From Barnesiella sp. An22 (GTDB lineage Bacteria; Bacteroidota; Bacteroidia; Bacteroidales; Barnesiellaceae), in the NCBI RefSeq assembly GCF_002159975.1, contig NZ_NFJR01000001.1, forward strand, positions 434,001 through 498,000: 64,000 nucleotides of DNA, written 5' to 3'. A program made the position numbers and the translations under genes. Shown piece after piece: positions 9,054 to 47,915 of the stretch; within the stretch, counting starts at the first letter, position 1, and the number at the start of each line of letters is the position of its first letter. Below the pieces are notes generated by a model. That model saw only the letters and a program-made list of their open reading frames with translations. It was not told the DNA's origin and searched no databases.

Positions 9054-10967
9054 ATGAAAGAATACCGATTGCAAGACTGGTTGCCCACGACCCGCAAAGA
9101 GCTGGAGATGCGGGGCTGGGATTATGTCGACGTGATTCTCTTCTCGGGCGATGCCTATGTCGACCACCCCTCGTTCGGGGCTGCCGTCATCGGGCGCATA
9201 CTCGAGGCCGAGGGGCTGCGGGTGGCCATCGTACCCCAACCCAACTGGCAGGACGACCTGCGCGATTTCAAGAAGCTGGGCACGCCCCGGCTCTTCTTCG
9301 GCATCTCGGCCGGAGCCATGGACTCGATGGTGAACCACTACACGGCCAACAAGCGTCTGCGCAGCGACGATGCCTACACCCCCAACGGGCGGCACGGCAT
9401 GCGCCCCGACTACCCCACCGTGGTCTACAGCCGCATACTCAAGGAGCTATTCCCCGACACGCCGGTCATCATCGGCGGCATCGAGGCTTCGATGCGACGC
9501 CTCACCCACTACGACTACTGGCAAGACAAACTGCTGCCGGGTATTCTGGCCGAGTGTCCCGCCGACCTGCTCATCTACGGCATGGGCGAGCGGCCCATCG
9601 TCGAGATTGCCCGCCGGCTGCAACAGGGCGAGACCATCGACCGCCTCACCGACATACCGCAGACGGCCACCATACAACCGGGTGCCAATACCCCCTCGAC
9701 AGTCGAGGATGAGCACAACATCGTGCTGGCTTCGCACGAGGAGTGTCTGCAACACAAGCGCAAGCAGGCCGAGAACTTCCGCCACATCGAGGAGGAGTCG
9801 AACAAATACCACGCCAAGCGGCTGTGGCAGCGCGTGGGCGAGCGGGTAATCGTGGTCAATCCGCCCTACCCGCCCATGACCGAGGCCGAAATCGACGCCT
9901 CGTTCGACCTGCCCTACACCCGCATGCCTCACCCCCGCTACAAGGGGAAGACGATACCGGCCTACGAGATGATCAAGTTTTCGGTCAATCTGCACCGGGG
10001 CTGTTTCGGCGGGTGTGCCTTCTGCACCATCTCGGCCCATCAGGGCAAATTCATCGCCTCGCGTTCCAAGGAGTCGATTCTCAAGGAGGTGAAGCAGATT
10101 ATCGCGATGCCCGACTTCAAGGGCTACCTGAGCGACCTGGGCGGCCCCTCGGCCAACATGTACCACATGCACGGCCAGAACCTGGAGCTGTGCCACAAGT
10201 GCAAACGCCCCTCGTGCCTGGCCCCCCAGATATGCCCCAACCTCAACGCCGACCACAGCGACCTGCTCGACATCTACCACGCCGTCGATGCCCTGCCGGG
10301 TATCAAGAAGTCGTTCATCGGCAGCGGCGTGCGCTACGACCTGCTGTTGCACCGCCACAAAGACGACGCGCTGAACCGCAGCACCCGCCGCTACACCGAG
10401 GAGCTGATTGCCCGCCACGTCTCGGGACGGCTGAAGGTGGCCCCCGAGCACACCTCGGACCGCGTGCTGGCCATCATGCGCAAGCCCTCGTTCTCGCTCT
10501 TCGAGCAGTTCAAGCGCACCTTCGACCGCATAGACCGCGAGCAGGGGCTCAACCAGCAGATTATCCCCTACTTCATCTCGAGCCACCCCGGATGCACCGA
10601 GGAGGAGATGGCCGAACTGGCAGCCCTGACCAAGCACATGAACTTCAAGCTGGAACAGGTACAGGACTTCACCCCTACCCCCATGACCCTCTCGACCGAG
10701 ATTTACTACACCGGCATACACCCCTACACGGGCGAGAAGGTCTACACCGCCCGCAAGCCCGAGGAGAAACTGAACCAGCGGAAATACTTCTTCTGGTATC
10801 TGCCCGAGAAGCGCAACGACATACAGAACTCGCTCAGGCGCATGCACCGCAACGACCTGCTCGAGAAACTCTACGGCAACACGCCGTGGCGCAAACCGGC
10901 CCACCTCGTGGGCGAGAACAAGCCGCCCCGGCGACAGAAAGGGAAACCGAACAAAAACAATCTATAA
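9054..10967 (+). CDS. YgiQ family radical SAM protein
   Basis: A radical S-adenosylmethionine enzyme of the YgiQ family (UPF0313), whose substrate is not established. The N-terminal domain (to about residue 290) precedes the radical SAM core. The 4Fe-4S ligands form CX3CX2C at Cys317, Cys321 and Cys324 within RGCFGGCAFCTIS. A Cys-rich insert (LCHKCKRPSCLAPQICPN) is characteristic of the family. The C-terminus is basic and probably disordered. ATG at 9054 is chosen over an adjacent GTG at 9051; both are possible. It lies in the plus-strand operon after uvrB. Confidence 0.93.
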   Translation: MKEYRLQDWLPTTRKELEMRGWDYVDVILFSGDAYVDHPSFGAAVIGRILEAEGLRVAIVPQPNWQDDLRDFKKLGTPRLFFGISAGAMDSMVNHYTANKRLRSDDAYTPNGRHGMRPDYPTVVYSRILKELFPDTPVIIGGIEASMRRLTHYDYWQDKLLPGILAECPADLLIYGMGERPIVEIARRLQQGETIDRLTDIPQTATIQPGANTPSTVEDEHNIVLASHEECLQHKRKQAENFRHIEEESNKYHAKRLWQRVGERVIVVNPPYPPMTEAEIDASFDLPYTRMPHPRYKGKTIPAYEMIKFSVNLHRGCFGGCAFCTISAHQGKFIASRSKESILKEVKQIIAMPDFKGYLSDLGGPSANMYHMHGQNLELCHKCKRPSCLAPQICPNLNADHSDLLDIYHAVDALPGIKKSFIGSGVRYDLLLHRHKDDALNRSTRRYTEELIARHVSGRLKVAPEHTSDRVLAIMRKPSFSLFEQFKRTFDRIDREQGLNQQIIPYFISSHPGCTEEEMAELAALTKHMNFKLEQVQDFTPTPMTLSTEIYYTGIHPYTGEKVYTARKPEEKLNQRKYFFWYLPEKRNDIQNSLRRMHRNDLLEKLYGNTPWRKPAHLVGENKPPRRQKGKPNKNNL

Positions 10968-10977
10968 ACCTTTATTT

Positions 10978-13092
10978 ATGAACAAACTAAATTGTATGAT
11001 GATGGCAGGAGCATTATTAGTAACAGCCTGTCAGCCAGCTGGAAAGACCGGCGACATTATCGGCAAGCAGCCCGTGAAAGTCGAAAACGGCATCCTGACT
11101 ACCGAGGTGCTCATGGCCTTTGGCCGGGTGAGCGACCCTGTGGTTTCGCCCGACAAGAGCAAAATCCTCTTCGGGGTTACCTACGAAGATGTGAAGCAGA
11201 ACAAGAGCAACCGCGAGCTCTTCGTGATGGACATCGACGGACAGAACAAGAAACAGATTACCTGCACCCCCGAGTCGGAGGGCAACGCCGTGTGGATTAA
11301 CGGCGGCAAACAGATTGCCTACCTCTCGGGCAAAAGCGGCGACTCGCAACTGTGGATCATGGAGGCCGACGGCAGCAACGCCCGGCAGATAAGCCACCAC
11401 GAGAAGGGCATCAACGGCTTCCTCTTCTCGCCCGACGAGAAACAGATCCTCTTCATCGGCAACGTGAAGTACAGCCAGAAGGCCTCGGACATCTACCCCG
11501 ACCTCGACAAGGCTACCGGCCGCGTGATCGACGACCTCATGTACAAACACTGGGACGAGTGGGTCGAGGAGATTCCGCACCCCTACATCGCCTCGTTCGA
11601 CGGTAAGGAGCTTTCGGGCATCGTCGACATCATGGAGGGCGAGCCCTACGAGTCGCCCATGAAACCCTTCGGCGGCATCGAGTCGTTTGCCTGGACTCCC
11701 GACAGCAAGGCCGTGGCCTACACCAGCCGCAAGAAGACCGGTCTGGAATACTCCATCTCGACCAACTCCGACATCTACCTCTACGACCTGGCTACCAAGC
11801 AGACCCGCAACCTCACCGAGGGCATGATGGGCTACGACACCACGCCGACCTTCTCGCCCGACGGCAAATACCTGGCTTGGGGCAGCATGGAGCGTGACGG
11901 CTACGAGTCGGACAAGAACCGCCTCTTCATCATGAACATGGCTACCGGCGAGAAACAAGACCTCACAGCCGACTTCGACTACAGCACCGACGAACTGGCC
12001 TGGGCTCCCGACGGACAGTCGCTCTTTATCCGCTCGGCCTACCAGGGCGAGATTCACATCTTCCGCGTGGGCCTCGACAAGAAAATCGAGCAGATTACGA
12101 CCGGCTACTACGACTACGCCTCGCTGGCTCCCGTGAGCGAGAGCTGCCTCATCGCCATGCGTCACTCGCTGTCGCAACCCGACGAGATTTACAGCGTCAA
12201 CCCCCAGAGCAAAGAGGTGAAAGAGCTCTCGTTCGAAAACAAGGAGATACTCGACCAGCTCACCATGGGCAAGGTCGAGGAGCGTTGGATCACGACCACC
12301 GACAACAAGAAGATGCTCACCTGGATTGTCTATCCGCCCCACTTCGACCCCTCGAAGAAATACCCCGCCATTCTCTACTGCCAGGGTGGTCCGCAGCAAC
12401 CCGTCAGCCAGTTCTGGTCGTATCGCTGGAACCTGCAACTGATGGCGGCCAACGGCTACATCGTCATCGCCCCCAACCGCCGCGGTCTCTACGGCTTCGG
12501 ACAGGAGTGGCTCGAACAGATTAGCGGCGATTACGGCGGTCAGAACATGAAGGACTACTTCAGCGCTACCGACGAGATGAAGAAAGAGCCCTATGTCGAC
12601 GGCGACCACATGGGTGCCGTGGGTGCCAGCTACGGCGGCTTCTCGGTATACTGGCTGGCCGGCCAGCACCAGAAACGGTTCAAGGCCTTCATCGCCCACG
12701 CCGGTATCTACAACCTCGAGCAACAGTATGTCGAGACCGAAGAGATGTGGTTTGCCAACTGGGATATGGGCGGCGCACCCTGGGACAAGACAAACGCTAC
12801 GGCTCAACGCACGTTTGCCACTTCGCCCCACAAATTCGTAGACCAATGGGATACGCCTATCCTCATCACTCACGGCGAATATGACTTCCGCATCCTCGCC
12901 TCGCAAGGCATGTCGGCCTTCAATGCCGCCAAACTGCGCGGCGTACCGGCCGAGATGCTCATCTTCCCCGACGAGAACCACTGGATTCTGAAACCGCAGA
13001 ACGGCGTGCTGTGGCAACGGATCTTCTTCCGCTGGCTCGACCGCTGGCTGAAACCTCAAGCACAAACCGAGAATCCGGAACCGGCAAAATGA
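10978..13092 (+). CDS. S9 family serine peptidase (acylaminoacyl/dipeptidyl peptidase type), lipoprotein
   Basis: A secreted peptidase of the prolyl oligopeptidase family that probably trims peptides in the cell envelope. It has a lipobox-like signal peptide with Cys18 (LLVTAC). A seven-bladed beta-propeller region follows (about residues 40-410, with repeated SPD and WTPDS motifs). The C-terminal alpha/beta hydrolase domain carries Ser551 in GASYGG, Asp636 in GEYDFR and His668 in ENHW, the expected triad. At 704 residues the length is typical. It is 10 nt after the YgiQ gene and overlaps the next gene by 4 nt (ATGA). Substrate preference cannot be read from the sequence. Confidence 0.92.
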   Translation: MNKLNCMMMAGALLVTACQPAGKTGDIIGKQPVKVENGILTTEVLMAFGRVSDPVVSPDKSKILFGVTYEDVKQNKSNRELFVMDIDGQNKKQITCTPESEGNAVWINGGKQIAYLSGKSGDSQLWIMEADGSNARQISHHEKGINGFLFSPDEKQILFIGNVKYSQKASDIYPDLDKATGRVIDDLMYKHWDEWVEEIPHPYIASFDGKELSGIVDIMEGEPYESPMKPFGGIESFAWTPDSKAVAYTSRKKTGLEYSISTNSDIYLYDLATKQTRNLTEGMMGYDTTPTFSPDGKYLAWGSMERDGYESDKNRLFIMNMATGEKQDLTADFDYSTDELAWAPDGQSLFIRSAYQGEIHIFRVGLDKKIEQITTGYYDYASLAPVSESCLIAMRHSLSQPDEIYSVNPQSKEVKELSFENKEILDQLTMGKVEERWITTTDNKKMLTWIVYPPHFDPSKKYPAILYCQGGPQQPVSQFWSYRWNLQLMAANGYIVIAPNRRGLYGFGQEWLEQISGDYGGQNMKDYFSATDEMKKEPYVDGDHMGAVGASYGGFSVYWLAGQHQKRFKAFIAHAGIYNLEQQYVETEEMWFANWDMGGAPWDKTNATAQRTFATSPHKFVDQWDTPILITHGEYDFRILASQGMSAFNAAKLRGVPAEMLIFPDENHWILKPQNGVLWQRIFFRWLDRWLKPQAQTENPEPAK

Positions 13093-31403: not shown

Positions 31404-33566
<2,163 letters not shown>

Positions 33567-33592: not shown

Positions 33593-36500
33593 TTAGTCTT
33601 TCAACAGTTTGCACACTGTCATTTGCCCTTCTTCCGAGATTCTCACCAGATAAGTACCCTTGTTCAGTTGGGCAATATCCAGAGTCGATACACTACCGTT
33701 CAATCTTTGTTGCATCACGCACTGGCCGTTTATCGAAAAAATCTCTATTTCCCCTTCGTTTGAGGCCAGATGCACATTGATCAAATCTTTGGTCGGATTG
33801 GGATAGACATAACTCTGATCTGCAACCGGAGTCTGCACACCCGTGCTCTCCTTGCTTATGCTGTAAACCAGAGTCTGGTCGTTGAACCGTATCGTATAAT
33901 CGCCGGTAGTCTCAATGGTAAATTTGAGGTTGGGCTTGCCGCCTGTGGTCTCGACGGCCGTTCCGGCCAAGCCTTCTACACCACCCCAGTCCTTGTCGCT
34001 CCAATTGTTAGTGTTGGCAAATTTCAACTCCCACTCTCCGGCCGGGATATTCACGTCGGTTACCTCCCATTGGTTGTCGGCCACCAGTTCCATGTAACCG
34101 GCACCCAGAGTCCAGTTGTTGTAGGTACCGCCTACATAAATCTCCTTTTGTACCGAGTCGTATGTGCGAACGACAGCATACTGCAGGGTGTGAGGATTAA
34201 AGGTAATGTAATAGTTTCCGCTCGTCTCGATGGTAAACTTGATGTTCTTGCAACTCTCGTCGGGGCCCTTCACGGCAGTACCCGTCAGGCTGTTGTTCCC
34301 GTCGGGAGCACCCCAATCGGTATCGCTCCAGTTGTCGGTATTGGCAAACTTCATTTCATAGGTGCCGGCTTCGAAATAGAGGCGGTCGCTCGTGAGTGTT
34401 CCGTCTTTCGAGGGGTCTTTGAGCATGAGGCGTTTGTCTTCGTCGCCATTGAACCAGTTGGTAAAGGAACCGGCAATAAAGTAGGTGCCGATCTTGCTCA
34501 AATCGAGCGACTCGGAAACATCGGCTACTTTCGGTACCCGAATCGTATTGCTGCTCGTCCAGTCGGAGTATTGAGTTTGCTCGCCACCGACAACAGCTAC
34601 CCTGAAATAGCGGGCCGGACGTTCAAAACTGCCTTCGGTTTGGGTGATGCTTACCAACAGCGAATCGGCATTATACTCCGTACAGGAGAATTGCAACAGG
34701 GCATAGTCGCCGTTCCGGTATTCAAAGCCTTCGCCCTCGTCGTCGTACAAGGCACCTTCGGCCTGACCGTTGTCAAGCGGATTTACATACAGCGTAATGG
34801 AGTCGCACGTGTACTCGGCCGTGCTCTGAATGTCGTGACCCAGATAAGGCAGAATGGCACCCGAGCGAAGTGCTACGATGGCTTGATAACCGTCGTCCTC
34901 GGCTTCCAGTGTTAGCTCGTCCCAGTCGCCACCGGGCAAGGTGGGGTTGACAGCCCAGCGCGGAATCACGAGCAGGTCACCGCCCAACAGGAAGGCTTGT
35001 TGCTCTTCGCGCAAACTTTCGTCGGTCAAATCGGCAAAGAATACCGGGCGCATGACGGGCATGCCCGTTTGAGACGATTCGCGGAACAGCGTATAGAAAT
35101 AGGGCAACAGATGGTAACGGCGGTTCACGGCGTTGCGGGCCACCTTCTCTATCTTGCTGCCAAAAGCCCAGGGCTCTTGAGCGTGTTCCGACGTGTGATT
35201 ACGCGAGAAGGGGTAATAGGGAGCCAACGCAAACCAGTGGCCCATCAGGTCGGCATTGCCGATGCGGCCGTATCCGCCAACGTCGGGGCCGCCGAAAGGT
35301 TGTCCCGAGAGGCCGAGGTTGAGCAGTACGGGAATCGTCAGCTTCAAGTGTTTCCACGTGTCGAGATTGTCGCCGGTCCACGTAGCGCAATAGCGTTGTG
35401 CACCCAGGTGATTGGCACGGGAGAGGAGGAAGGGACGCTTGTCGGGGCGGCTCTGCATGAGGCCTTCGAAAGAGGCTTTCGTCATCAACGACCCGTACAG
35501 ATTGTGATAGCGCATGTGAGGCCCGGCAGCCAAATCGCCGCCACCGCGATGCCAGTTGGTCGTGAGCATGGTCCACTCGGGGGTATTGAACACGCCCGGT
35601 TCGTTCATGTCGTTCCAGGCACCGTCCATATTGTTTTCCTTGTAGAACTCGCCATAGAGGCCGGCCCACCATTCGCGAGTCTCGGGCCGCGTGAAGTCGG
35701 GGAACTTGCACATGCCCGGCCACACTTCGCCCTCGTAGTCGGTCACCTTGTCTTCGGTTTTCACCCAGTGATCGCCCTCTTGTCCTTGCTGATAGACAAT
35801 GTAGCTATCATCGATTTTCACACCCGGGTCGGTAATGTAACCGGCCTTGAAGTTACGGCTGTGAAGCGAGTCGTTCATGGCCAGCGGATTGGGAACTCCG
35901 GCTGCCGAGAAGTAGTCGGAATCGTCGTAGGTGAAAAGACGTTTCCCATCCATATAGTCGATGTCGAACCAGATGACGTCGCACGGGTGATGGCGACGAC
36001 GCATCTCGCTGGTAATCCACAGGACATCGGCCGGTTTGTACGAAGGGTTATAGCGCGACTGGTGGTACCCGATAGCCCACAGCGGCGGCAGGTTGATGGT
36101 ACCCGTCAGTTCGCCCAAGGCCTGCATCATCTCGGCCGGAGAGTTACGCTCGATAACGACCACCCGGAAAGAGGGACCTTCGCTGGTGATTTTCATCGGG
36201 TTCGTCAGGTTAATCTCCGAGCGCCAACTGTTATCGGCAATGATACCGAAGGTTTTGCCATCGGGACGTACCCCCATAATCCAGGGGTGCGACTGATAGA
36301 GCCCCTCTTTGTAATAGCCATAGTTGTCGTTGTTCCACAGAGGAATATCATAACCGTTACGGCGCAAATTGCCGTTTACAAGCCCCGTTCCGTACAGGTC
36401 GACATTGTCGCTGTAAGCAATCTCTACCAGGGTTTTCCCGTTATCGTCGGTTTTGAAAACCGGACGTATCTCCCAGTCGGACGGCACATCGCCCTGCCGG

Positions 36501-36658
36501 GTCAACTCTTTCTGTATGGCAAACGAGGCCAAAGTTTGTGTCGAATCGAAATCGGCCGGATAGAATACCGCCATTCGATCGCCACACAAAAATTCTTCTT
36601 GAGCATGCACGCCGATAGAGGCACACAGCATCAAAACAGACAGCAATTTGTACTTCAT
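33593..36658 (-). CDS. GH31 alpha-glucosidase with two binding modules and a T9SS sorting domain
   Basis: A secreted enzyme of 1021 residues. Signal peptide to about residue 19. The GH31 catalytic part has nucleophile Asp350 in WNDMNEP and acid/base Asp430 in ATWTGDN, and ends in a beta-rich region near residue 700. Two related carbohydrate-binding-like modules follow (about 720-832 and 836-937), each with a FANTxNWSDxDWG motif. Residues 945-1021 form a type A T9SS C-terminal domain (YPNPTKD ... INGQCV ... LNKGTYLVRI). It should therefore leave the cell through type IX secretion and be anchored at the surface or released. It lies 117 nt after GH66 in the PUL. The likely task is removal of glucosyl units from alpha-glucans such as dextran. 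Confidence 0.93.
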   Translation of the reverse strand: MKYKLLSVLMLCASIGVHAQEEFLCGDRMAVFYPADFDSTQTLASFAIQKELTRQGDVPSDWEIRPVFKTDDNGKTLVEIAYSDNVDLYGTGLVNGNLRRNGYDIPLWNNDNYGYYKEGLYQSHPWIMGVRPDGKTFGIIADNSWRSEINLTNPMKITSEGPSFRVVVIERNSPAEMMQALGELTGTINLPPLWAIGYHQSRYNPSYKPADVLWITSEMRRRHHPCDVIWFDIDYMDGKRLFTYDDSDYFSAAGVPNPLAMNDSLHSRNFKAGYITDPGVKIDDSYIVYQQGQEGDHWVKTEDKVTDYEGEVWPGMCKFPDFTRPETREWWAGLYGEFYKENNMDGAWNDMNEPGVFNTPEWTMLTTNWHRGGGDLAAGPHMRYHNLYGSLMTKASFEGLMQSRPDKRPFLLSRANHLGAQRYCATWTGDNLDTWKHLKLTIPVLLNLGLSGQPFGGPDVGGYGRIGNADLMGHWFALAPYYPFSRNHTSEHAQEPWAFGSKIEKVARNAVNRRYHLLPYFYTLFRESSQTGMPVMRPVFFADLTDESLREEQQAFLLGGDLLVIPRWAVNPTLPGGDWDELTLEAEDDGYQAIVALRSGAILPYLGHDIQSTAEYTCDSITLYVNPLDNGQAEGALYDDEGEGFEYRNGDYALLQFSCTEYNADSLLVSITQTEGSFERPARYFRVAVVGGEQTQYSDWTSSNTIRVPKVADVSESLDLSKIGTYFIAGSFTNWFNGDEDKRLMLKDPSKDGTLTSDRLYFEAGTYEMKFANTDNWSDTDWGAPDGNNSLTGTAVKGPDESCKNIKFTIETSGNYYITFNPHTLQYAVVRTYDSVQKEIYVGGTYNNWTLGAGYMELVADNQWEVTDVNIPAGEWELKFANTNNWSDKDWGGVEGLAGTAVETTGGKPNLKFTIETTGDYTIRFNDQTLVYSISKESTGVQTPVADQSYVYPNPTKDLINVHLASNEGEIEIFSINGQCVMQQRLNGSVSTLDIAQLNKGTYLVRISEEGQMTVCKLLKD

Positions 36659-36775
36659 AAAAAACTATATTTCAAAATAAGCAATCTTGTAACTTCTTTT
36701 CTATTCGTCGCGGCAGAGCCGGCCGGGCCGAGGCAATCCCCTGCAGGACTCCTCCCCCAGCCCGCTTCCGAGATC

Positions 36776-38551
36776 TCAATATTCCACGACAATCATGTCC
36801 CAGTATTTCAAGGCCGGGAGGGTTGTGGTTATCTTGCCGCCGGCATATTCATACTCGAGCGGTATGGCCACACCGTCTTTCACATCGGGCGAAGCCACCC
36901 ATACGGCTTTGGGATTCTGTTTGACGGCAAAGCTCACATTCACGGCTTCCAGCAAATCGGGCTCACCCTGGTTGGCATTGGTATCACACCAATCGAGGTG
37001 TGTGGCATTGCGATAGCTCAACAGGTGTATCACATCGCGGTCGTCGAAGCGTTTGCCCACGGTGGCAATCTGGCCTCTCACGGGTCCCCACTGGTTGAAT
37101 ACAACATCGCCGGTCGTCGAGGTGACATCGATACCGTACCATTCGCCACCGTCGCGCAACAGGTTCTGGTAGGCGGTGAGGAAATCGTAGTAGTGAATGA
37201 GCGCAATCTTCAACTCACCCCGCATCGAGAGGTTGTTGTTGGGGAAATACTCGTTGCAAAGCAGATGCTCGCCCAGTTGCAGAATAGAACCGCCCCAGGC
37301 AAAAGCGGCCGCACTACCCATGAGGATACCGGGCGTATTGAAATAGCTGCGTCCCTTGCGTCCGTGCTCGTAATTCATATAAGCGGCCAGAACCGTCTTC
37401 TTGCCATTGGACCACTTGTCGTTGTTGGTAATGATGTCGGAGAAGATGGTATATCCGCGGTCGTCGCTGTGGTCCCACACCTCGGTGTAGAGGAAGTCGA
37501 CAGGAGCTTTCGAAATCTGGTTCTCCTGGCCATACTGGCCCACGGCATTCATCACGAGCGACTTGTCGGGATTGGCCTCTTTCATGCTCTCGATAAAGTG
37601 CTTGAAAGTCTGGTCGAGATAGACCCGGTTGCCATAATAGTCATAGGTTTCGCCCCGGTCGCCCAACTGGTCTATCTGGTAGCCGTCGAAATCGAACACG
37701 GCATATACGTCGCTGTTCTGCTTGGTGATGTAGTCGATCCAGGCTTCATTGCCCGAATTGACAATATAGATGCTGCTCTTGAAAGGCGATCCCAGCTCGT
37801 GGCAATCCTTACGCACATGGCTGGCATCCTTGAAGAGATACCACTCCTCCTGCACGCCATCTTCGGCGGCATCGGCAAGGGCACCGTAAGCCAGGTTGTA
37901 GAACAACGACTTCATGCCATACTGATGCGATTTTTCGATATATCCCTCTACCGTCTTCTTGTAGCAGTCGCGGTTGATGATGTCGGTCCACACCTCCATC
38001 GGTGCCGACGGCGTACCGGCCAGGGGTTTGTGGTGCTTGTAGTGCCAGTCCTGGAATTGCACGTAGTTGATGTGATGGCGATTGAGGTCGGACATGACGT
38101 CGGATATATCCTGGTCGGTCATGTTGCCATAGGCCGAGAGGAAACCGTTGCGCGGGAACCGGTCGGGGGTCGACGATACATCGACGGCAATGCTGCCATA
38201 GACGGTCTCTACCCCGTCGGCATCCTTGCTGTACAGGTCGACCATATAGCCCTGATAGTCGGTGGCAGGCGGCTGCCAGCTCCAGCTGCAGCTACTCAGC
38301 GGAGCCTCCTCGAGGGTGGTACCCAAATGACGGTAACGTACCATCACGTTGGAAGCCCCTTGAATGAGCTTGTTGAGCGTGAAATTCACAGCCTCGCCCG
38401 GAGCATAGCAGGCTTTATCGGTATTGAGTTGTACCTCCATGTAACCATCGCCATAGGTGATGGGATCGTTCTCTATGTCAAAGCGGTTGCAGGCCGAAAT
38501 CGACAGGAGAGCCGAAACGGAAAGGTAGGCTAAAAACAGCTTCTTAATCAT
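36776..38551 (-). CDS. GH66 dextranase-type glycoside hydrolase, lipoprotein
   Basis: A protein of 591 residues with lipobox SISAC (Cys21), so probably a surface lipoprotein. An N-terminal Ig-like domain (about 35-130) precedes the GH66 barrel. Key residues are Asp294 in YQIDQLGDRG (nucleophile) and Glu357 in FLYTEVWD (acid/base), matching the family. GH66 contains endo-dextranases and cycloisomaltooligosaccharide transglucosylases; the CITase-specific CBM35 insertion is not seen, so dextranase is more likely. It follows the SusE-like gene by 12 nt. This gene is the main reason for calling the locus a dextran (alpha-1,6-glucan) PUL. Confidence 0.9.
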   Translation of the reverse strand: MIKKLFLAYLSVSALLSISACNRFDIENDPITYGDGYMEVQLNTDKACYAPGEAVNFTLNKLIQGASNVMVRYRHLGTTLEEAPLSSCSWSWQPPATDYQGYMVDLYSKDADGVETVYGSIAVDVSSTPDRFPRNGFLSAYGNMTDQDISDVMSDLNRHHINYVQFQDWHYKHHKPLAGTPSAPMEVWTDIINRDCYKKTVEGYIEKSHQYGMKSLFYNLAYGALADAAEDGVQEEWYLFKDASHVRKDCHELGSPFKSSIYIVNSGNEAWIDYITKQNSDVYAVFDFDGYQIDQLGDRGETYDYYGNRVYLDQTFKHFIESMKEANPDKSLVMNAVGQYGQENQISKAPVDFLYTEVWDHSDDRGYTIFSDIITNNDKWSNGKKTVLAAYMNYEHGRKGRSYFNTPGILMGSAAAFAWGGSILQLGEHLLCNEYFPNNNLSMRGELKIALIHYYDFLTAYQNLLRDGGEWYGIDVTSTTGDVVFNQWGPVRGQIATVGKRFDDRDVIHLLSYRNATHLDWCDTNANQGEPDLLEAVNVSFAVKQNPKAVWVASPDVKDGVAIPLEYEYAGGKITTTLPALKYWDMIVVEY

Positions 38552-38563
38552 ATCTTTTGAACT

Positions 38564-40000
38564 TTATAATTTTACGAATGAGATGGTTTCATTTTCCACG
38601 TCGATAGTGATGCGGTAATTCCCGGCTTCGCTTATAATCCATTTGTTGTCGGGCTGGTTGCCGATGACGTAGGATCCGTTTTCCGAGATGGGACAGTTGG
38701 CCTGCGGAGCCAGTATGAAATCGCCGCCAAAGCTGTGGTCGATTTCGAGCGGGAACTTCAGTTCGCCTTCCGACAAATAGCCCTCGTAGGTGAACACGTT
38801 GGGGTTGGACGAATTGCGTTGCATCTCGGTGATGTTGTCCCACGACCAACCGCCGGGAGCAGCCGAGCCCATGATCCATACATGCTCGTATCCTACGTAG
38901 TTGCCAATCTCCAGAGTATTGCCCCGCAAGTCGAGTGTCACGCTGTACTTGTTGGCAGCCGGTATGTTCCACTGCTTGCTGGCCGTGCCTATATCGTCGA
39001 CGAGTTGGATGGTCGTGGTACCCAGCCCGTTGTTGTCGAGAGGCTGATAACCGGCGCAACCCGAGGTCGCGGTCGTGCTCGAGATGAGCATATTGCCGGC
39101 CGACAAGGCTCCGTTGTAGATAAAGATAAAGGAGTCGTCGCTCGACTGCTCGAGTTTGATGGCCGAGGGTGCAGCCTCGCCTACCAGATAAAGGGTCGAG
39201 AAGGGTACCTCGCCGTCGAGGTTGGTGAAGCTGACGGTAAGCAGGTCGAGATTCACATCGATCAGGTAGTTGCCGGCCTCTTCGATTACCCACTTGTTGT
39301 CGGGATAGTCTTCCTCTTTCTCCCGGTAGTGCATCCTGGTGGGGTCGTCGTTGTCGCGCACGTAGCACGGATACCAGTCGCCCAGCTGGGCATTGAACTT
39401 GATTTCGCCCTTCTTGAGCATACCCTGCCAGGTGAAGTGCGCAATGTTGTCGTAGTCGCTCGACATGATGGTGGCCAACTGATTGTCCCAACCATTGGGG
39501 GTAGCATCGCCGATGATATAGAGGTTGAGCACCCGCCATTTATAGGGAGCGATTCTTACCTCCTTCACAGGCGATACCTGCATGGGGACGGTGGGGTCTG
39601 CGACGGTAGCCGTTACCCGCATTTCAAAATCGGTGTATTGCTCGAGGGGAATGGTGGGGAAATAGTGGAGCAAGGTATCGGTAAGCTCCTTGTTGGTAAA
39701 GGAGATTACCCGCGAATCGGTCTTGCCGATGTTGTATTTGATACCGTTTTCGAAATTATCGCCCTTCACATCCATCTCGAAAAAATACGAGATAGCTGCA
39801 CCCGTACCTTGGTTGGTCCCGCTGGTCCAGGTAATTTGCAGAGCCTCCTGGGCATCGCTGCGCTGGTCGCAACGTACCGAATCGGCCGAGAGATTTATCA
39901 TCAGGGGCGACTCGCCCTTGTCGAGCACAATCTCCTCCTCACACCCGACCAGACCGACCGAGGCGAGTAATGTCATACCTATTATAGTCTTTGCTTTCAT
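38564..40000 (-). CDS. SusE-like glycan-binding lipoprotein
   Basis: A surface lipoprotein of 478 residues with lipobox GLVGC (Cys20) followed by acidic residues (EEE), consistent with surface export. An N-terminal SusE Ig-like domain covers about residues 25-170. Three binding repeats follow, starting near LYIIGDATPNGWDNQL, LYLVGEAAPSAIKLEQ and VWIMGSAAPGGWSWDN, as in SusE/SusF. It would hold alpha-glucan near the SusCD transporter. It is 19 nt after susD and 12 nt before GH66. Confidence 0.9.
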   Translation of the reverse strand: MKAKTIIGMTLLASVGLVGCEEEIVLDKGESPLMINLSADSVRCDQRSDAQEALQITWTSGTNQGTGAAISYFFEMDVKGDNFENGIKYNIGKTDSRVISFTNKELTDTLLHYFPTIPLEQYTDFEMRVTATVADPTVPMQVSPVKEVRIAPYKWRVLNLYIIGDATPNGWDNQLATIMSSDYDNIAHFTWQGMLKKGEIKFNAQLGDWYPCYVRDNDDPTRMHYREKEEDYPDNKWVIEEAGNYLIDVNLDLLTVSFTNLDGEVPFSTLYLVGEAAPSAIKLEQSSDDSFIFIYNGALSAGNMLISSTTATSGCAGYQPLDNNGLGTTTIQLVDDIGTASKQWNIPAANKYSVTLDLRGNTLEIGNYVGYEHVWIMGSAAPGGWSWDNITEMQRNSSNPNVFTYEGYLSEGELKFPLEIDHSFGGDFILAPQANCPISENGSYVIGNQPDNKWIISEAGNYRITIDVENETISFVKL

Positions 40001-40019
40001 TGTTTTTCAGTCTCTTTGA

Positions 40020-41516
40020 TTAGTAACCCGGATTTTGCGTTAACATCGGATTGGCCTCGATCTCCTGCTGGGGAATCGGGAGCAACAGATGCTTGGAGCT
40101 GGCCGATGTCTTCCCTATCGAGTGGAGGAAGTTGAGGGCATAGTTGTCCTTGTAGCGAATCATGTCGAACCAACGGTGACCTTCGAAGGCGAGTTCGATG
40201 CGACGCTCGTGGATAATCTTCTCACGCATCTGGGCTTGAGTAAGCCCCTCAATGGTGCTTCGGTCGGTGAGGCCGGCACGTTTGCGTACCTCGTAGAGCG
40301 GATCTTCGGCCTGTACGGTGCGACCCAGTTCGTTCAGCGCCTCGGCCTTGAGCAGCAAGATGTCGGCATAACGGGTAACGACCCAGTCGGCATTGCTCGT
40401 GTTGTAGTCGGGCGATTGAGCTTTGGTAAGCAGGAATTTGCGCACGTTGTACCCCGTAGTCGAGTAGGACGAGCTGTATTGTTTGCCGTCGAATGTGGGG
40501 CACCCCATGTAGAAGATGGTCTTGTCCTTACGCAAGTCGCCCTCTTCGTATTGGCTTACAAACTCGGCCGTAGGCTGGTTCCAGCCGTAGCAGCCGGCAG
40601 CCATGTCGGAGTTGCGGGGCCCCATGAAGGTGCTGGTCCACGAACATTGGTTCTCGTTGCTCCAGAAATCGTAGTTGGTCTTGCCATAATACTGCACCTC
40701 GAAGATAGACTCCACGCCGTTCTTTTTAGCGGGGTCAAAAATGTCGGAGTAGTCGCTGGCCAGCTCGTAACCCATCGAGCCTATCTCGTCGCACATGCGC
40801 ACTACCTCTTCGTACTTGTCGTTACTGGGCTCGTAGGTCATGTATACCCGGATGAGTTCGGCCATGGCGGCTTCGCGGGTAGCACGGCCCAGATCGGTAG
40901 TGGAGTACTCCGATTTCTTGGGAAGCAGTGAGATGGCATTCTTGAGGTCCGATGTGATGAGTTCGTAAATCTTGCTTACCGGGGCACGCTCTACCAACAG
41001 ATTGGTCTCGGAGGTTTGCGGGGTGATAATGTAGGGTACACCGCCGAAAAGCCGTACCAGAATAAAGTAGTAGTGAGCTCTCAGGAAATAGGCTTCGCCC
41101 AGGCAACGGTTCTTGAGCGTCTGGTCCATATCCATACCGGGTACATTCTGCAACACGAAGTTGCACCGCAAGATACCGGGCGAAGGACCGCGCCACAAGT
41201 CGAGGGCGGCAAAGTTGTCGGCCGTAGCGATAAAGTTGGCCAGGTCGACCGTCTCGATACCGTCGGTACCGCCACCGGCACCCACGACACTGTTGCCGGC
41301 CATGATGTCGAGCGTCCAGATGCGCATGTTGTAGAGTTTGGCCCATTGCAGAGGCTGGTAGGCCGCATTGACAGCCGCCACGGCATCCTCGGCGGTTTGG
41401 AAACCCTCCGACGTATCGACCGAGTCCCAGGGCTCACGATCCAAGAAATCACTGCAAGCGCTCAACAGCATGGCAAGAGCGCCGAAAATCGATATGATAT
41501 AAGTTGTTCGTTTCAT
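40020..41516 (-). CDS. SusD/RagB-family nutrient-binding lipoprotein
   Basis: Surface lid of the SusCD importer. Its 498 residues have lipobox LLSAC (Cys21) followed by SDFLDREPWDSVD, the classic SusD start. TPR-like helices are interspersed, and the conserved C-terminal end reads LEALNELGR ... LAFEGHRWFDMIRY ... LLPIPQQEIEANPMLTQNPGY. It starts 13 nt after susC. Confidence 0.97.
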   Translation of the reverse strand: MKRTTYIISIFGALAMLLSACSDFLDREPWDSVDTSEGFQTAEDAVAAVNAAYQPLQWAKLYNMRIWTLDIMAGNSVVGAGGGTDGIETVDLANFIATADNFAALDLWRGPSPGILRCNFVLQNVPGMDMDQTLKNRCLGEAYFLRAHYYFILVRLFGGVPYIITPQTSETNLLVERAPVSKIYELITSDLKNAISLLPKKSEYSTTDLGRATREAAMAELIRVYMTYEPSNDKYEEVVRMCDEIGSMGYELASDYSDIFDPAKKNGVESIFEVQYYGKTNYDFWSNENQCSWTSTFMGPRNSDMAAGCYGWNQPTAEFVSQYEEGDLRKDKTIFYMGCPTFDGKQYSSSYSTTGYNVRKFLLTKAQSPDYNTSNADWVVTRYADILLLKAEALNELGRTVQAEDPLYEVRKRAGLTDRSTIEGLTQAQMREKIIHERRIELAFEGHRWFDMIRYKDNYALNFLHSIGKTSASSKHLLLPIPQQEIEANPMLTQNPGY

Positions 41517-41529
41517 CGGTGGTTATGGA

Positions 41530-44523
41530 TTAAAAGGTTATGTTCAATCCGAACGTAAAATTACGGGTCACGGGATACACATTATTGTCGTTGCCCGAAC
41601 CGCTCACCTCGGGATCGAGACCCGTATAGCGGGTAAGGGTAAAGAGGTTCTGTGCCGATACCGAGAGGCGTACCTGCTGCATGGCGGCCTTCTTGGTCAG
41701 GCGACTGGGCAGGGTGTAACCCAGCGAAATGTTCTTCAAGCGCAGGTAGCTGCCATCCTCGAGGAATCGGTCGGATACCCGGTTGTTCTTATTGGGGTCG
41801 CCAAAGACGGCACGCGGCATCGTATTGCTCGTGCCGGGTCCACGCCAGCGGTCGAGCACGGTCGTCATCTGGTTCTGAGCTACGCTCATGGCCTCGAGCG
41901 ACGCGCGGTTGCCATTGTAAATCTTGTTGCCGGCTACGCCCTGGAAGAAGATTTCCAGGTCGAATCCCTTGTAGGAAAACTGGTTGTTCATGGCAAAAGT
42001 CCACGAAGGCGTAGGGCTGCCCAATACGGTACGGTCGTCGTCGTTGATGACACCGTCGTTGTTCAAGTCCTTGAAACGAATATCGCCCGGCTGTGTGCTC
42101 GACGTAGGATCGCTGCCCACCGTCTGTATGGCATGGTTGTCAACCTCTTCCTGCGTCTGGAAGATACCGTCGGTCACATAACCATAGAAAGAGCTGATGG
42201 GATAGCCTACCATGTGCACGTTGTTGTCGAAATACATGGGCACGTCGCTGTTCAGGCTAATCAGTTCGTTGTGGTTGTACGACACGTTGGCCGTAGTCGA
42301 CCAGGTGAAGTCGCCTCCACGGAAGTTGAACGAGGTCAGGGCCAACTCGACCCCGACGTTGCGCATCAGGCCGGCATTGATTTGCGACACGTTCTCGTCG
42401 GAGTAACCCGAAGAGATGGGTACCGACATGGGCACCAGCATATCGTTGGTATTCTTGATATATCCGTCGAGGGTTACCAGCAACCGGCTGTCGAGCATCG
42501 AAGCATCGATACCTACGTTGTATTGCTCGACCTCTTCCCAGCGCACATTGGGATTGGGCATCACCCACGGGGCCAGACCCGACACCTGGTTGCCGTTGAA
42601 ATTGTATTGCACGGTTTGCAGTACCGAGGCATAGGCGTAGTTGCCCACGCTGGCCTGGTTACCGGTAACACCGTATCCGGCACGTATTTTCAGGTCGCTC
42701 AACGCAAAACTCTTCTGGAACCACTCCTCTTCGCTCATTCGCCAGGCAAGCGACACCGAGGGGAATACACCCCAGCGGTTGGCCCGGCTGAAACGCGAGC
42801 TACCGTCGGCACGCATGGTGGCGGTAAACAGATAGCGATTGTCATAGGTGTAGTTGATACGGCCCATGAACGACAGGAGCGCCCAGTCGCTGCCGTTACC
42901 GGTGAGGGTCGGCTCCAGAATACCGTTGGCCAACTCTTGGGCCGAATCGCTGATGAAGCCTTGTATGCTACCGCTCATAAACTCGTAGGTGTTGGTCTGG
43001 GCCGACGAACCTATCATGGCGGTTACGGCATGCTTGTCGTTGAAGGTCTTGTTGAAGGTGAGCAGGTTGTCCCACAACCAGGTAAAGCTCTTGTTGTACT
43101 GGCGCGAAGCCTGCGACTCGGGTTGCTCGATAGGCTCCCAGTCGTACTTGGGAGTCCAGCTCTTGCTGTCCCAGAAGAGGGCCTGGATACCAAAGGTGCT
43201 CTTAAACGTGAGCCACTCCCACGGTTTTATCTCGGCATAGATATTACCCAGCAGGTTGTAGCCCTTGGTGGTCGAGGTATTCTCCATCATTTTACCGATG
43301 GGGTTGGCAATATCGCCCACATACATAGCCAATCCCACAGGGCCGGCCCAAGAGCCGTCTTCGTTTTTGATGGCCTGGGTAGGCAGCGCCTTCATGGTGT
43401 TCTGGATGTTGTACTCGCCCTGCGACTTAATGTCGTGGTTGAGCGAAAGGTTGTGCCCCAACTTCAACCATTTGTAGAGTTCGACATCGGAGTTGAACTG
43501 AAGTGTAAACCGCTTGTAGTCGGTTGTCTTGATGATACCCTGCTGATCGTAGTAGGTACCCGATACGTAATAACGGCTCTTTTGCGTACCCCCCGAATAG
43601 TTGGCCGAATAGGTCTGCGTAGGAGCATACTGGAAAAGCTCGCCCATCCAGTCGGTACCCTTGCCCAGTTTGGTGGGGTCGTTGAAGAGAGCATACTGGG
43701 GTTGTCCGCCGGCACTCATCATCTCGTTGTGTAACGAGGCAAACTGCGTGGCGTTGAGCAACGGCAGGGTGCGTTGCAACTGATCGAACCCGTAGGTCAC
43801 TTTCAAATTCAGGTTGTTGCGCTCCTGCGAGCCTCGCTTGGTGGTGATGATAATCACGCCATAGGCACCGCGCGAACCGTAGATGGCCGTAGCCGAGGCA
43901 TCCTTAAGGATGTCGACGCTCTCCACGTCGTCCATGTTGATCATATTCAAAGGTACATCGGTAGGTACACCGTCGATAACCAAGAGGGGGTCGCTGTTGT
44001 TAATGGAACCGATGCCTCTGATTTTCATACTCACGTTGCTGCCCGGGGCCCCGCTCGAAACTACCTGCAAACCGGGGGCCCTACCTTGCAAGGCGGCTCC
44101 GAGGCTCGGCGACGGCTGACGGGCCAAATCTTTGGAGGAGACCTGCGAGATAGCTCCCGTCAAGTCGCTTTTCTTCTGGATACCATATCCAATGACTACA
44201 ATCTCGTCGAGCATCTCGTTGTTTTCGTACATGACAATCTGCATCGTGCTCTGTCCGTTCACATCGGCGTCTTGAGCCACATAGCCTACATAACTGAGAT
44301 GCAATACGGGATTGGCCGAACTGAGATTGAGACTGAAATGTCCATCTATATCGGTCACGGTTCGGTTCGAAGTCCCTTTCTCCGATACATTGACACCGAT
44401 AAGCGGCTCCTGGTTGACGTCGAGAACAGTGCCCTCGACCTTGCTCTGAGCCCATACGGCGAATGGTAACAGGCATAAGAGGATTACACAGCATGTGATC
44501 CTGCCCAAATGGTTGTTTTTCAT
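41530..44523 (-). CDS. SusC/RagA-family TonB-linked outer membrane transporter
   Basis: A TonB-dependent barrel of 997 residues that imports oligosaccharides. It has a signal peptide to about residue 25 (AWAQ) and an N-terminal carboxypeptidase-regulatory-like domain (VEGTVLDVNQEPLIGVNVSEKG). The TonB box region MLDEIVVIGYG, the plug with SSKDLARQPSPSLGAALQGRAPGLQVV, and a C-terminal barrel ending TFGLNITF complete it. It is separated from the upstream SusF-like gene by 75 nt that contain a terminator hairpin, which may lower readthrough. Confidence 0.97.
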   Translation of the reverse strand: MKNNHLGRITCCVILLCLLPFAVWAQSKVEGTVLDVNQEPLIGVNVSEKGTSNRTVTDIDGHFSLNLSSANPVLHLSYVGYVAQDADVNGQSTMQIVMYENNEMLDEIVVIGYGIQKKSDLTGAISQVSSKDLARQPSPSLGAALQGRAPGLQVVSSGAPGSNVSMKIRGIGSINNSDPLLVIDGVPTDVPLNMINMDDVESVDILKDASATAIYGSRGAYGVIIITTKRGSQERNNLNLKVTYGFDQLQRTLPLLNATQFASLHNEMMSAGGQPQYALFNDPTKLGKGTDWMGELFQYAPTQTYSANYSGGTQKSRYYVSGTYYDQQGIIKTTDYKRFTLQFNSDVELYKWLKLGHNLSLNHDIKSQGEYNIQNTMKALPTQAIKNEDGSWAGPVGLAMYVGDIANPIGKMMENTSTTKGYNLLGNIYAEIKPWEWLTFKSTFGIQALFWDSKSWTPKYDWEPIEQPESQASRQYNKSFTWLWDNLLTFNKTFNDKHAVTAMIGSSAQTNTYEFMSGSIQGFISDSAQELANGILEPTLTGNGSDWALLSFMGRINYTYDNRYLFTATMRADGSSRFSRANRWGVFPSVSLAWRMSEEEWFQKSFALSDLKIRAGYGVTGNQASVGNYAYASVLQTVQYNFNGNQVSGLAPWVMPNPNVRWEEVEQYNVGIDASMLDSRLLVTLDGYIKNTNDMLVPMSVPISSGYSDENVSQINAGLMRNVGVELALTSFNFRGGDFTWSTTANVSYNHNELISLNSDVPMYFDNNVHMVGYPISSFYGYVTDGIFQTQEEVDNHAIQTVGSDPTSSTQPGDIRFKDLNNDGVINDDDRTVLGSPTPSWTFAMNNQFSYKGFDLEIFFQGVAGNKIYNGNRASLEAMSVAQNQMTTVLDRWRGPGTSNTMPRAVFGDPNKNNRVSDRFLEDGSYLRLKNISLGYTLPSRLTKKAAMQQVRLSVSAQNLFTLTRYTGLDPEVSGSGNDNNVYPVTRNFTFGLNITF

Positions 44524-44549
44524 CTATAATTTATCTTTAGGGGGAAAGT

Positions 44550-44587
44550 AAAAAAGAGAGGCTGCCACACTCGCAGAGCAGCCCCTC
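44550..44587 (-). terminator. Intrinsic terminator/attenuator between the SusF-like gene and susC
   Basis: Stem GGCTGC/GCAGCC (with outer GAGG/CCTC), loop about 12 nt. On the minus strand it is followed by TCTCTTTTTT. It sits inside the PUL operon directly before susC. I see no TAnnTTTG element between it and susC. Confidence 0.75.
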
Positions 44588-44598
44588 CATGAAATAAT

Positions 44599-45957
44599 TT
44601 ATCGAACTGCTATCTTATGAGTCATACGGCCTTTGGAGGTCTCGATAACCAGCACGTAAATACCTGAATTGAGGCCATCGAAGGACAACAGCGTGGCGTC
44701 GACCGAAACGACTTTCCGGCCGCTGATGTCATACAGTGCCATGGATTGAGCCCGGTCGCAAACGATTCCATAAGACTCTTGTACCCAATCGATCGATTCA
44801 ATCTCTTCGATTGCCGTCGAGGGACCTTCGTTTTTCTCGACATTGAGTTTCATCGATTTCAGATCGACAGTCAACGTATAGTTGCCGGCTTGAGCAGCCT
44901 CGACGTAGAACTTGAAGTCGTTGCCATCGCTCAACTTGGTGATTGTCGACTCACCCTCTTGGAACGGAGTGTTGGCAGCCTCGGCGCCATAGGCCGTATA
45001 GTCAAAGCTGTTGCCGTCGTAGAATTTCAATTCGCCCTCGGTCAAATCGCCCGTCCAGGAGTATACCCCTTCCTGGTCCTTGACTTCCAGAATATGGTTG
45101 TCTTCGAATGTCCAGCCGCCAACGGCATCACCGATGACCCACAACTTTTCGGGATAGGTTTCGGCGATGGTCAGTTTCATGGTGTTTACATCGACCGTCA
45201 CCTCGTACAAACCCTCGACCAGAACACCGAACTTCCAGTCCTCACTGCTGGTTGTGGTATATTTCAAATCATACTCACCGGGAGCGGCAATCGTCTGCTC
45301 AGGCTGAGCCGACACGTACATGCGGTCGTTCCACTTCCGGGTCATCATAAACTTCAAGCCTTCGAAAGCCTCGCACTTGCTCAGTTGCAACGTGCCTTTA
45401 TAGATGCCCGAATCGAAAGAGGTCTCGGGCAGCTCGATGGCACTCTCGATAGCCCAGTGCACATCCGTAGCATCGCCTATCGCATACACGGCCTCAAAGT
45501 GTGCGGCAGCCTGGTCGGGCAACTCGGTACCGTCGATTACCTCGACCAGCGGTTTTTCGCCGGTAAGGTCGACTCTGAATTTATAGCGCCCGGCAGCTGA
45601 TACCTTGAACGACTTGTCGGGAGCCGTGTAGTCGCTACGATATTCCAACTCGTGAGAACCGGTTGTCAAATCCAGATAGGTTTCATTGGGATTATCGCCC
45701 ACAACCGTAGAGGCCATGGCCGGGCCATAGCCGGGAGCAAAATCATACGTCGTTACAAAACGCATGCGGCCTTCGGTCAAATCGCCGGTGTATTCATACA
45801 CACCATCTTCGACCGTTACCATACGAATCACATTATTACTATCCCATTGTGCCGGGGTGGCATCACCTATTACATATAACGAGGCGGGATAATTGCCGGC
45901 TGCTATCGTAGCCGAACATAAGGCTAAAGCCGAGAAAAGTAAGAATCTGCTTTTCAT
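44599..45957 (-). CDS. SusF-like glycan-binding protein with T9SS sorting domain
   Basis: A 452-residue secreted protein. The signal peptide (MKSRFLLFSALALCSATIAAG) lacks a lipobox, so unlike SusE/F it is not a lipoprotein. Three SusE/F-type binding repeats begin at LYVIGDATPAQWDSNN, VYAIGDATDVHWAIES and LWVIGDAVGGWTFEDN. The last 70 residues match a type A T9SS C-terminal domain (ALYDISGRKVV ... LNSGIYVLVIETSKGRMTHKIAVR). It probably reaches the surface by type IX secretion. It is the first gene of the PUL operon behind the promoter at 46024-46054 and has a terminator after it, so it may be expressed more than susC. ATG at 45957 is chosen because it starts the signal peptide. Confidence 0.85.
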   Translation of the reverse strand: MKSRFLLFSALALCSATIAAGNYPASLYVIGDATPAQWDSNNVIRMVTVEDGVYEYTGDLTEGRMRFVTTYDFAPGYGPAMASTVVGDNPNETYLDLTTGSHELEYRSDYTAPDKSFKVSAAGRYKFRVDLTGEKPLVEVIDGTELPDQAAAHFEAVYAIGDATDVHWAIESAIELPETSFDSGIYKGTLQLSKCEAFEGLKFMMTRKWNDRMYVSAQPEQTIAAPGEYDLKYTTTSSEDWKFGVLVEGLYEVTVDVNTMKLTIAETYPEKLWVIGDAVGGWTFEDNHILEVKDQEGVYSWTGDLTEGELKFYDGNSFDYTAYGAEAANTPFQEGESTITKLSDGNDFKFYVEAAQAGNYTLTVDLKSMKLNVEKNEGPSTAIEEIESIDWVQESYGIVCDRAQSMALYDISGRKVVSVDATLLSFDGLNSGIYVLVIETSKGRMTHKIAVR

Positions 45958-46277: not shown

Positions 46278-47915
46278 ATGAACATATCACATCGACCTGC
46301 CCTCCTGTCGATAGGCATCCTGCTCACCCTGCTCCCTGCCTGTTTTCATACGCAAGCTGCAACCCCAAGCTGCGAACCGCCCCAACTCACCGTCGAAGCA
46401 ACACTCGACTCGCTCGACCGACTCATCGGCTACCGCTACCGCTTCAGTCAAAAAAAAGAGCGAGAGATACAGACTCTCAAACAAAACCTGAGGAAACAAC
46501 TCTCACCGGCCGAACGATTCCGGGCTCTCGGCTACCTGGTCGACGCCTATCGGGCATTCAGCATCGACTCTCAAACGGTATATGTAAAACGTCAGATTCA
46601 TCTGGCCGACCAGGTGAAAAATCGAGACATGCAGGTACAAGCCCGACTCAATATGGTCGAGTGCCTTTACAACGCAGGCATGTACAAAGAAGCCGACGAA
46701 CTGCTGAACCAGATAAAACGCAGCTCCCTGCCCCATTACATCATTCCCTATTACTACCATTTGAAACGGACTCTCTACGGACTACTGGCCGACTATGCAC
46801 TGGAGCCGGAGATTCGCAACGACTACAACAAGCACCTGAACCTCTATCGCGACTCTATCTTGCAGTCCAACCCCTCCAACTCGTTTACCTACTATGTAGT
46901 CAAGGCCGACGAACTCACCGCACAACACAACTACGCCAGTGCATTGCAAATATTGCGCGAAGCTCTCTATCGAGGCCAACTCAACTCGCACGACCGGGGC
47001 ATCATCTATTACGGCATGGCCGAAGTCTTTGCCCAGACCCAACAGAACGACAGCACAAAAATCTACTACGCCCTCTCGGCTCAATGCGACCTGAAAGCAG
47101 CCGTGCGGGAATATGTTTCGCTGCACCGGCTGGCCGAACTCCTGTTCAACGAGGGCGACATCGAGCGCGCCTACAACTACATCAAATGCTCGGTCGAGGA
47201 TGCCCGGGCCTGCAACGCTCGGGTGCGCAGCCTCGAATTCATGCCCGTATTCACCATTATCGAAGAGGTATATCAGGCTCAGATACAGAAACAACGCGAA
47301 CTCTCGATTACGTTTACCTACATCACCTGCGCCTTCTGCGTGATTCTGCTAATCACCTTCGTGATTCTGTTTTTCCAAAACCACAAGCTCAACAGTGTCA
47401 AAGAGAAACTCAACCAGACCAACAAACACTTGCAGACCGTGAACAACTCGCTCACCGAGAGCAATCACGTCAAGGAGGAGTACCTGAGCCGATACATGGA
47501 CCAGTGTGCCGTATATATCGACAAGATGGACGAGTATCGACGTTCGCTCAACAAACTGGCCTCGATGGGCAAGATGGAAGAACTCTCTAAAAATTTGAAA
47601 TCACAGAACAGTATCAACAACGAACGCAAAATGTTCTATGCCGAGTTTGACCAGTCGTTTCTGAAACTATACCCCGACTTTGTCGAGAAATTCAACGAGT
47701 TGCTGGTGCCCGAGGCTCGCATCACCCCCAAGCCCAATTCGCTCACCCCCGAGCTACGCATTTATGCGCTGGTTCGCCTGGGCACGACCGACAGCAACCA
47801 AATAGCCCGCTTCCTGTGCTACTCGGTTTCGACCATATACAACTATCGGGTAAAGATTCGCAACTCGGCCATCGGCTCTCGCGACGACTTCGAAGAGCGA
47901 GTCATGCACCTGTAA
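46278..47915 (+). CDS. SusR-like membrane transcriptional regulator (DUF6377)
   Basis: A regulator of 545 residues resembling SusR, the starch-locus activator of B. thetaiotaomicron. It has an N-terminal signal-like segment, a periplasmic TPR-like sensor region (to about residue 335), a transmembrane helix about residues 341-365 (FTYITCAFCVILLITFVILFF) and a coiled coil with NQTNKHLQTVNNSLTES. The cytoplasmic domain ends in a LuxR-like helix-turn-helix (about 490-530, GTTDSNQIARFLCYSVSTIYNYRVKIR). It faces the PUL operon divergently. It probably senses oligosaccharides in the periplasm and activates the operon directly. Confidence 0.88.
   Translation: MNISHRPALLSIGILLTLLPACFHTQAATPSCEPPQLTVEATLDSLDRLIGYRYRFSQKKEREIQTLKQNLRKQLSPAERFRALGYLVDAYRAFSIDSQTVYVKRQIHLADQVKNRDMQVQARLNMVECLYNAGMYKEADELLNQIKRSSLPHYIIPYYYHLKRTLYGLLADYALEPEIRNDYNKHLNLYRDSILQSNPSNSFTYYVVKADELTAQHNYASALQILREALYRGQLNSHDRGIIYYGMAEVFAQTQQNDSTKIYYALSAQCDLKAAVREYVSLHRLAELLFNEGDIERAYNYIKCSVEDARACNARVRSLEFMPVFTIIEEVYQAQIQKQRELSITFTYITCAFCVILLITFVILFFQNHKLNSVKEKLNQTNKHLQTVNNSLTESNHVKEEYLSRYMDQCAVYIDKMDEYRRSLNKLASMGKMEELSKNLKSQNSINNERKMFYAEFDQSFLKLYPDFVEKFNELLVPEARITPKPNSLTPELRIYALVRLGTTDSNQIARFLCYSVSTIYNYRVKIRNSAIGSRDDFEERVMHL

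Follow-up and report, generated by a model that had tools for sequence, protein, structure and literature searches.

A Barnesiella dextran utilisation locus combining a lipoprotein core with two products that carry predicted type IX sorting domains

The window analyzed here, a 64,000-nt stretch of contig C1 from a 3.35 Mb, 99.7% complete Barnesiella genome (closest named relative, Barnesiella sp. An55; GH66 identity 94%), contains a set of genes that read, along the minus strand, SusF-like, susC, susD, SusE-type, GH66, GH31 and GH97, with a DUF6377 TPR-HTH gene lying divergently in front of them. Coordinates are positions in this window unless a contig or locus label is given, and signal peptides and lipoboxes were called by eye and by pattern. 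The features are as follows:

46278..47915, plus strand: divergent TPR-TM-HTH regulator with DUF6377 (PF19904, 281 bits)
44599..45957, minus strand: SusF-like, predicted glucan-binding protein, 452 aa, with a type I signal peptide, three SusE/SusF/X25-like modules and a C-terminal T9SS type A domain (PF16411, 72.6 bits, cut-off 27.5; TIGR04183, 27.8 bits); start ATG at 45957, stop at 44599
44602..44805, minus strand: SusF-like T9SS sorting domain, approximately residues 385-452 (TIGR04183, family profile, model, fold match)
44530..44600, minus strand: GC hairpin and T run, terminator-like, between the SusF-like gene and susC (individual folds, -21.2 kcal/mol)
41530..44523, minus strand: SusC-type TonB-dependent transporter (TIGR04056, 971.7 bits)
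40020..41516, minus strand: SusD-type lipoprotein, lipobox LSAC read from the sequence (PF07980, 148 bits)
38564..40000, minus strand: SusE-type lipoprotein, relative of the BT3088 SGBPdex, lipobox LVGC (9sje, BT3088, E 1.7e-50; PF16411/PF14292)
36776..38551, minus strand: GH66 endo-dextranase lipoprotein of the BT3087 family, lipobox ISAC (NF052487, 835.8 bits, cut-off 730)
33593..36658, minus strand: GH31 alpha-glucosidase of the BT_3299 type, 1021 aa, with a type I signal peptide, two added modules and a T9SS type A domain (PF01055, 331 bits, cut-off 23.5; 5djw, E 1.5e-208)
33827..34576, minus strand: two AMPK-CBM/X25-like modules, residues 695-944, between the GH31 core and the sorting domain (PF16561, 26.4 bits, and PF22058, 24.7 bits, both slightly below cut-off)
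33596..33826, minus strand: GH31 T9SS sorting domain, residues 945-1021 (TIGR04183, PF18962, tail profile, model)
31404..33563, minus strand: GH97 alpha-glucoside hydrolase with a type I signal peptide, no sorting domain and no lipobox (PF10566, 348.7 bits)

Consistent with the original prediction of a dextran-type locus, a BT3087-family GH66 gene adjoins the SusCD genes and a gene for a BT3088-like binding protein. Judged by these matches, the locus is one for the use of dextran (alpha-1,6-glucan), and its outer-membrane core is that of the known Bacteroides utilisome, which cryo-EM of the B. thetaiotaomicron complex defined as Bt3087-Bt3090 (PMC7618045). PUL48 of that species (BT3086-BT3091; PMC7618045, PMC10936149) contains SusC, SusD, a BT3088-type SGBPdex and GH66 in the same order, and its binding protein and GH66 are likewise lipid-anchored. 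PUL48 differs in that it operates without a T9SS and without sorting domains, and in that its GH31, BT3086, is placed in the periplasm (PMC10936149) and belongs to another GH31 subgroup. In the Barnesiella locus, all utilisome core products except SusC have lipoprotein signals, as had been expected for SusD, the SusE-like protein and GH66. The GH97 product is, by analogy, presumably periplasmic, and the DUF6377 gene probably encodes the regulator of the locus.

The same prediction held that the GH31 and SusF-like proteins lack lipoboxes and end in type A T9SS domains, and on both points the family profiles and signal peptides agree with it. Residues 951-1020 of the GH31 match TIGR04183 at 53.5 bits (cut-off 23), the top score among 83 matches genome-wide, and this tail also passes PF18962 (55.2 bits, cut-off 27). 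The SusF-like tail is the weaker case of the two: it passes TIGR04183 at 27.8 bits, covering only profile positions 22-71 of 72, fails PF18962 (21.1 bits, cut-off 27), and lacks the YPNP motif that is present at the start of the GH31 sorting domain. Both signal peptides are type I, MKYKLLSVLMLCASIGVHA-QEE in the GH31 and MKSRFLLFSALALCSATIAA-GNY in the SusF-like protein, which has the PF16411 match of SusE/SusF lipoproteins but, unlike its SusE-like neighbour, lacks a lipid-anchor signal. A profile built from eight GH31 tails recovers solved T9SS sorting domains (8glk, 1.2e-7; 8glj, 5.9e-7; 8qb1, 0.045). The GH31 tail was modelled with confidence in its sorting domain but not in its two modules (mean pLDDT 49.7), so that we draw no argument from the fold of these modules, which by their profile matches are putatively glucan-binding-like. 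No TIGR04131 match was listed for either protein at E values up to 10, and type B domains were rejected; chance matches are ruled out by the curated cut-offs, the profile matches to solved sorting domains and the conservation of the tails.

The absence of T9SS component genes had been set beforehand as decisive against the prediction. We found SprA (2891.6 bits), PorV (523.5 bits), PorM (551.4 bits), PorN (225.1 bits) and two full-length PorU-family sortases (1078 and 867.9 bits), all above cut-off, the two sortase genes lying close together right before PorV (L153:3905-7333 and 9487-12906). SprA was found in none of 14 control genomes. Missing secretion machinery is thereby ruled out.

We determined that GH66 is encoded by seven of nine Barnesiella genomes, and that in all seven dextran loci a SusF-like gene and a long GH31 gene are present, both tailed and both with an intact reading frame. 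A SusF-like gene with a sorting domain also precedes susC in Gallipaludibacter and Paludibacteraceae loci, whose hosts are SprA-positive, whereas no SusF-like gene lies before susC in the SprA-negative dextran loci examined. Of 52 loci that have SusC, SusD and GH66, 42 come from SprA-positive genomes, and 16 of these hold a sorting-domain gene; none of the 10 from SprA-negative genomes does (Fisher p 0.02, shared descent ignored). Since the other 26 of these 42 loci lack any sorting domain, dextran use does not depend on the T9SS route. A lipobox is present on GH66 and on the SusE type in the majority of loci with a readable start. Near their GH66 gene, some other T9SS-bearing Bacteroidales likewise encode a further SusE/F-like protein that has a sorting domain (L118:5539-6864, L120:13821-15155, L121:3816-7478). 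The dN/dS of GH31 tails is approximately 0.07-0.15, with dS partly saturated, and that of the SusF-like tail is well under 1 wherever dS can be estimated; by this measure the GH31 tail is under purifying selection.

The predicted use of two export routes within one locus is thus borne out, at the level of sequence, by the family scores, the lipoboxes, the T9SS genes, the conservation of the tails in seven of seven loci and the purifying selection on the GH31 tail. We consider it probable that one explanation accounts for the locus, namely that the utilisome core is held by lipid anchors, that the SusF-like and GH31 proteins are exported by the T9SS, and that digestion is divided between them. 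The secretion, final location, substrate linkage and division of labour that we infer would take the following form. Both proteins would pass via Sec into the periplasm and then undergo type IX secretion by means of their C-terminal type A domains; PorU would presumably remove the sorting domain, leaving the products either attached to the surface or free. Long glucan would be kept close to the cell by the SusF-like protein, and the exo-acting GH31 would remove side branches or chain termini outside the cell, which would let GH66 cut, and SusCD import, the pieces. GH97, and perhaps a tail-less GH31 paralogue, would finish digestion in the periplasm.

The GH31 that adjoins GH66 in most loci is tail-less and only about 30% identical to the present enzyme, which groups not with this usual GH31 of dextran loci but with BT_3299, which we take to be the protein of structure 5djw. 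The core of the latter is alike, but 5djw ends after the core, without added modules or a sorting domain. BT_3299 reportedly favours branched glucans; if so, branch trimming outside the cell would help GH66. Short relatives (approximately 720-750 aa) end 20-50 residues past the core and have plain signal peptides, while long relatives (approximately 1020-1090 aa) have tails of 330-360 residues. The genome itself encodes a tail-less paralogue (C54:134318-136285, 724 aa, 51% identity) beside another SusC locus. The tree of GH31 cores requires two changes between short and long forms, on the starred branches. The remote long forms G210 and G048 match the Barnesiella tails in the sorting domain only, the intervening modules being unrelated by BLAST; the sorting domain was therefore probably added twice in the family, once in Barnesiella together with binding-like modules and once, in a second lineage, behind unrelated modules. 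In the studied dextran loci the GH31s are placed in the periplasm, both BT3086 and FjDex31A of F. johnsoniae (PMC10316084). Because of this, and because the tail-less relatives have plain signal peptides, the change in the GH31 is more likely to have been from the periplasm to the outside than from lipoprotein to T9SS. The two routes of the original prediction thus stand, with the correction that the GH31 probably has not taken the place of a lipoprotein.

The ancestry of the GH31 also bears on an alternative that we regard as unlikely, with perhaps one part in four of our credence, in which both proteins are exported but serve another substrate, such as a starch-like or other branched alpha-glucan, and reside in a dextran locus through co-induction. 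The BT_3299-type core, so distant from the GH31 type of dextran loci, is in keeping with this, as is the resemblance of the added modules to starch- and glycogen-binding modules. However, the best sequence match of the SusF-like body, whose fold matches SusF (4fe9), SusE (4fch) and X25, is the dextran binding protein BT3088, and both genes are kept in the dextran locus in Barnesiella as in Gallipaludibacter.

A less probable alternative, to which we give only a small chance, is that the GH31 is the sole T9SS cargo, the SusF-like tail being a degenerate Ig-like domain of a protein that stays in the periplasm. The sub-threshold PF18962 score and the partial TIGR04183 match of this tail are compatible with such a reading, and so is its modelled fold (pLDDT of the SusF-like model, 86.6): the last 66 residues resemble the RgpB CTD (7pq4; Z 8.1, rmsd 2.1 over 64 residues) and the FspA, NucA and RemA domains of translocon structures (Z 7.5-7.7), but also DUF3244 Ig-like domains of Bacteroides (Z 8.7), a genus not known to have a T9SS. 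Because the DUF3244 domains score alike, the fold of the tail alone is no proof. Against this reading, the tail does exceed the TIGR04183 cut-off, and the sorting-domain genes of this genome that pass it commonly show short matches, starting at profile positions 12-22. Furthermore, a profile from thirteen SusF-like proteins matches at its C-terminal end 8glk (1.4e-4), RgpB (7pq4 and 5ag9, 0.0026) and 5hfs (0.0044), and thus recovers gingipain sorting domains, profile and fold agreeing in their matches to RgpB and flavobacterial sorting domains, and the tail is kept in seven Barnesiella as well as in Gallipaludibacter and Paludibacteraceae, all with SprA. That both tails are functionless relics has a negligible probability, as nothing was found in favour of it and the intact machinery, the purifying selection on the tails and the intact frames in seven of seven Barnesiella loci all speak against it.

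Export of the GH31 and SusF-like proteins alongside a lipid-anchored core may extend beyond the dextran locus. Stretches within 10 kb of a sorting-domain gene make up 26% of the genome but contain 11 of the 17 SusC genes (binomial p 0.0009, a rough figure), and there are two further pairs, so that mixed export looks general in this genome. The second pair (L149, G000:C28:1-4474) comprises a GH31 (22.6 bits, slightly below cut-off) and a SusF-like protein (29.8 bits) with sorting-domain tails; its relatives, with identities of 64% and 48%, lie inside a Gallipaludibacter dextran locus (L069:11763-15697). Contig C28, 4.5 kb in length, holds this pair only. The third (L151/L176, G000:C54:118.8-124.3 kb) comprises a GH97 (26.3 bits) and a SusF-like protein (31.2 bits) with sorting domains; it is accompanied by a DUF6383 protein and lies near a sigma/anti-sigma/SusC locus. 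Tentatively, and with somewhat less than even confidence, these three pairs suggest that Barnesiella and its relatives possess a second, T9SS-built alpha-glucan surface layer of repeated exo-alpha-glucosidase/SusF-like pairs, in which periplasmic enzymes were re-aimed by added modules and a sorting domain. An esterase and a GH92 enzyme that bear sorting domains contain PF16411 (SusE/F) modules as well (L150:11508-12911; L152:10042-13833). In an 810-aa frame on contig C8 (L175:4327-6759, minus strand, G000:C8), the N-terminal half of a SusC is followed by a C-terminal part bearing a strong sorting domain (47 bits), owing to either a gene fusion or an assembly error.

Several known systems share part of this arrangement. 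FjDexUL of Flavobacterium johnsoniae (PMC10316084) likewise resides in a T9SS-bearing host and has lipoproteins of the GH66, SusD and SusE types; however, its GH31, GH97 and GH65 bear type I signal peptides and are assigned to the periplasm, and no T9SS product was reported. The ChiA chitin locus of the same species (PMC5127042) is a SusCD locus that combines lipoproteins with a T9SS-secreted enzyme, but ChiA is the key multimodular chitinase, while in Barnesiella the role of cargo would fall to an exo-type alpha-glucosidase and a SusF-like binding protein. Candidatus Paraporphyromonas polyenzymogenes (PMC5831590), also of the gut Bacteroidales, has modular CAZymes with TIGR04183 tails but no typical SusCD loci, whereas the predicted T9SS products of Barnesiella lie inside one. 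Precedents thus exist for T9SS secretion of an enzyme from a SusCD locus (PMC5127042) and for gut Bacteroidales CAZymes that bear T9SS domains (PMC5831590). We found no earlier description of a dextran locus in which a T9SS-tailed SusF-type binding protein accompanies an exo-type GH31 that an added tail has re-aimed, nor any publication on T9SS-exported SusE/SusF or a T9SS dextran locus, although the search covered few subscription journals and this absence is weak evidence.

In the studied dextran model the last sugar-releasing steps occur in the periplasm, which keeps the products private. If the GH31 and SusF-like proteins are secreted by the T9SS, part of digestion would move out of the cell, and glucose would be released outside, where it may be shared. 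Since the same GH31 core exists with and without the tail, even in one genome, the effect of location is directly testable. Furthermore, lipobox-based surface prediction misses part of such a locus in T9SS-bearing gut bacteria, which should serve as a warning.

The terminator-like hairpin that separates susC from the SusF-like gene may reduce the expression of the core compared with that of the SusF-like gene. Covariation received no support from a MAFFT alignment, in which the right arm was misplaced, and individual folds alone were used. By such folds, hairpins recur in the same gap in relatives, other Barnesiella among them (L064-L068, L069, L070, L082).
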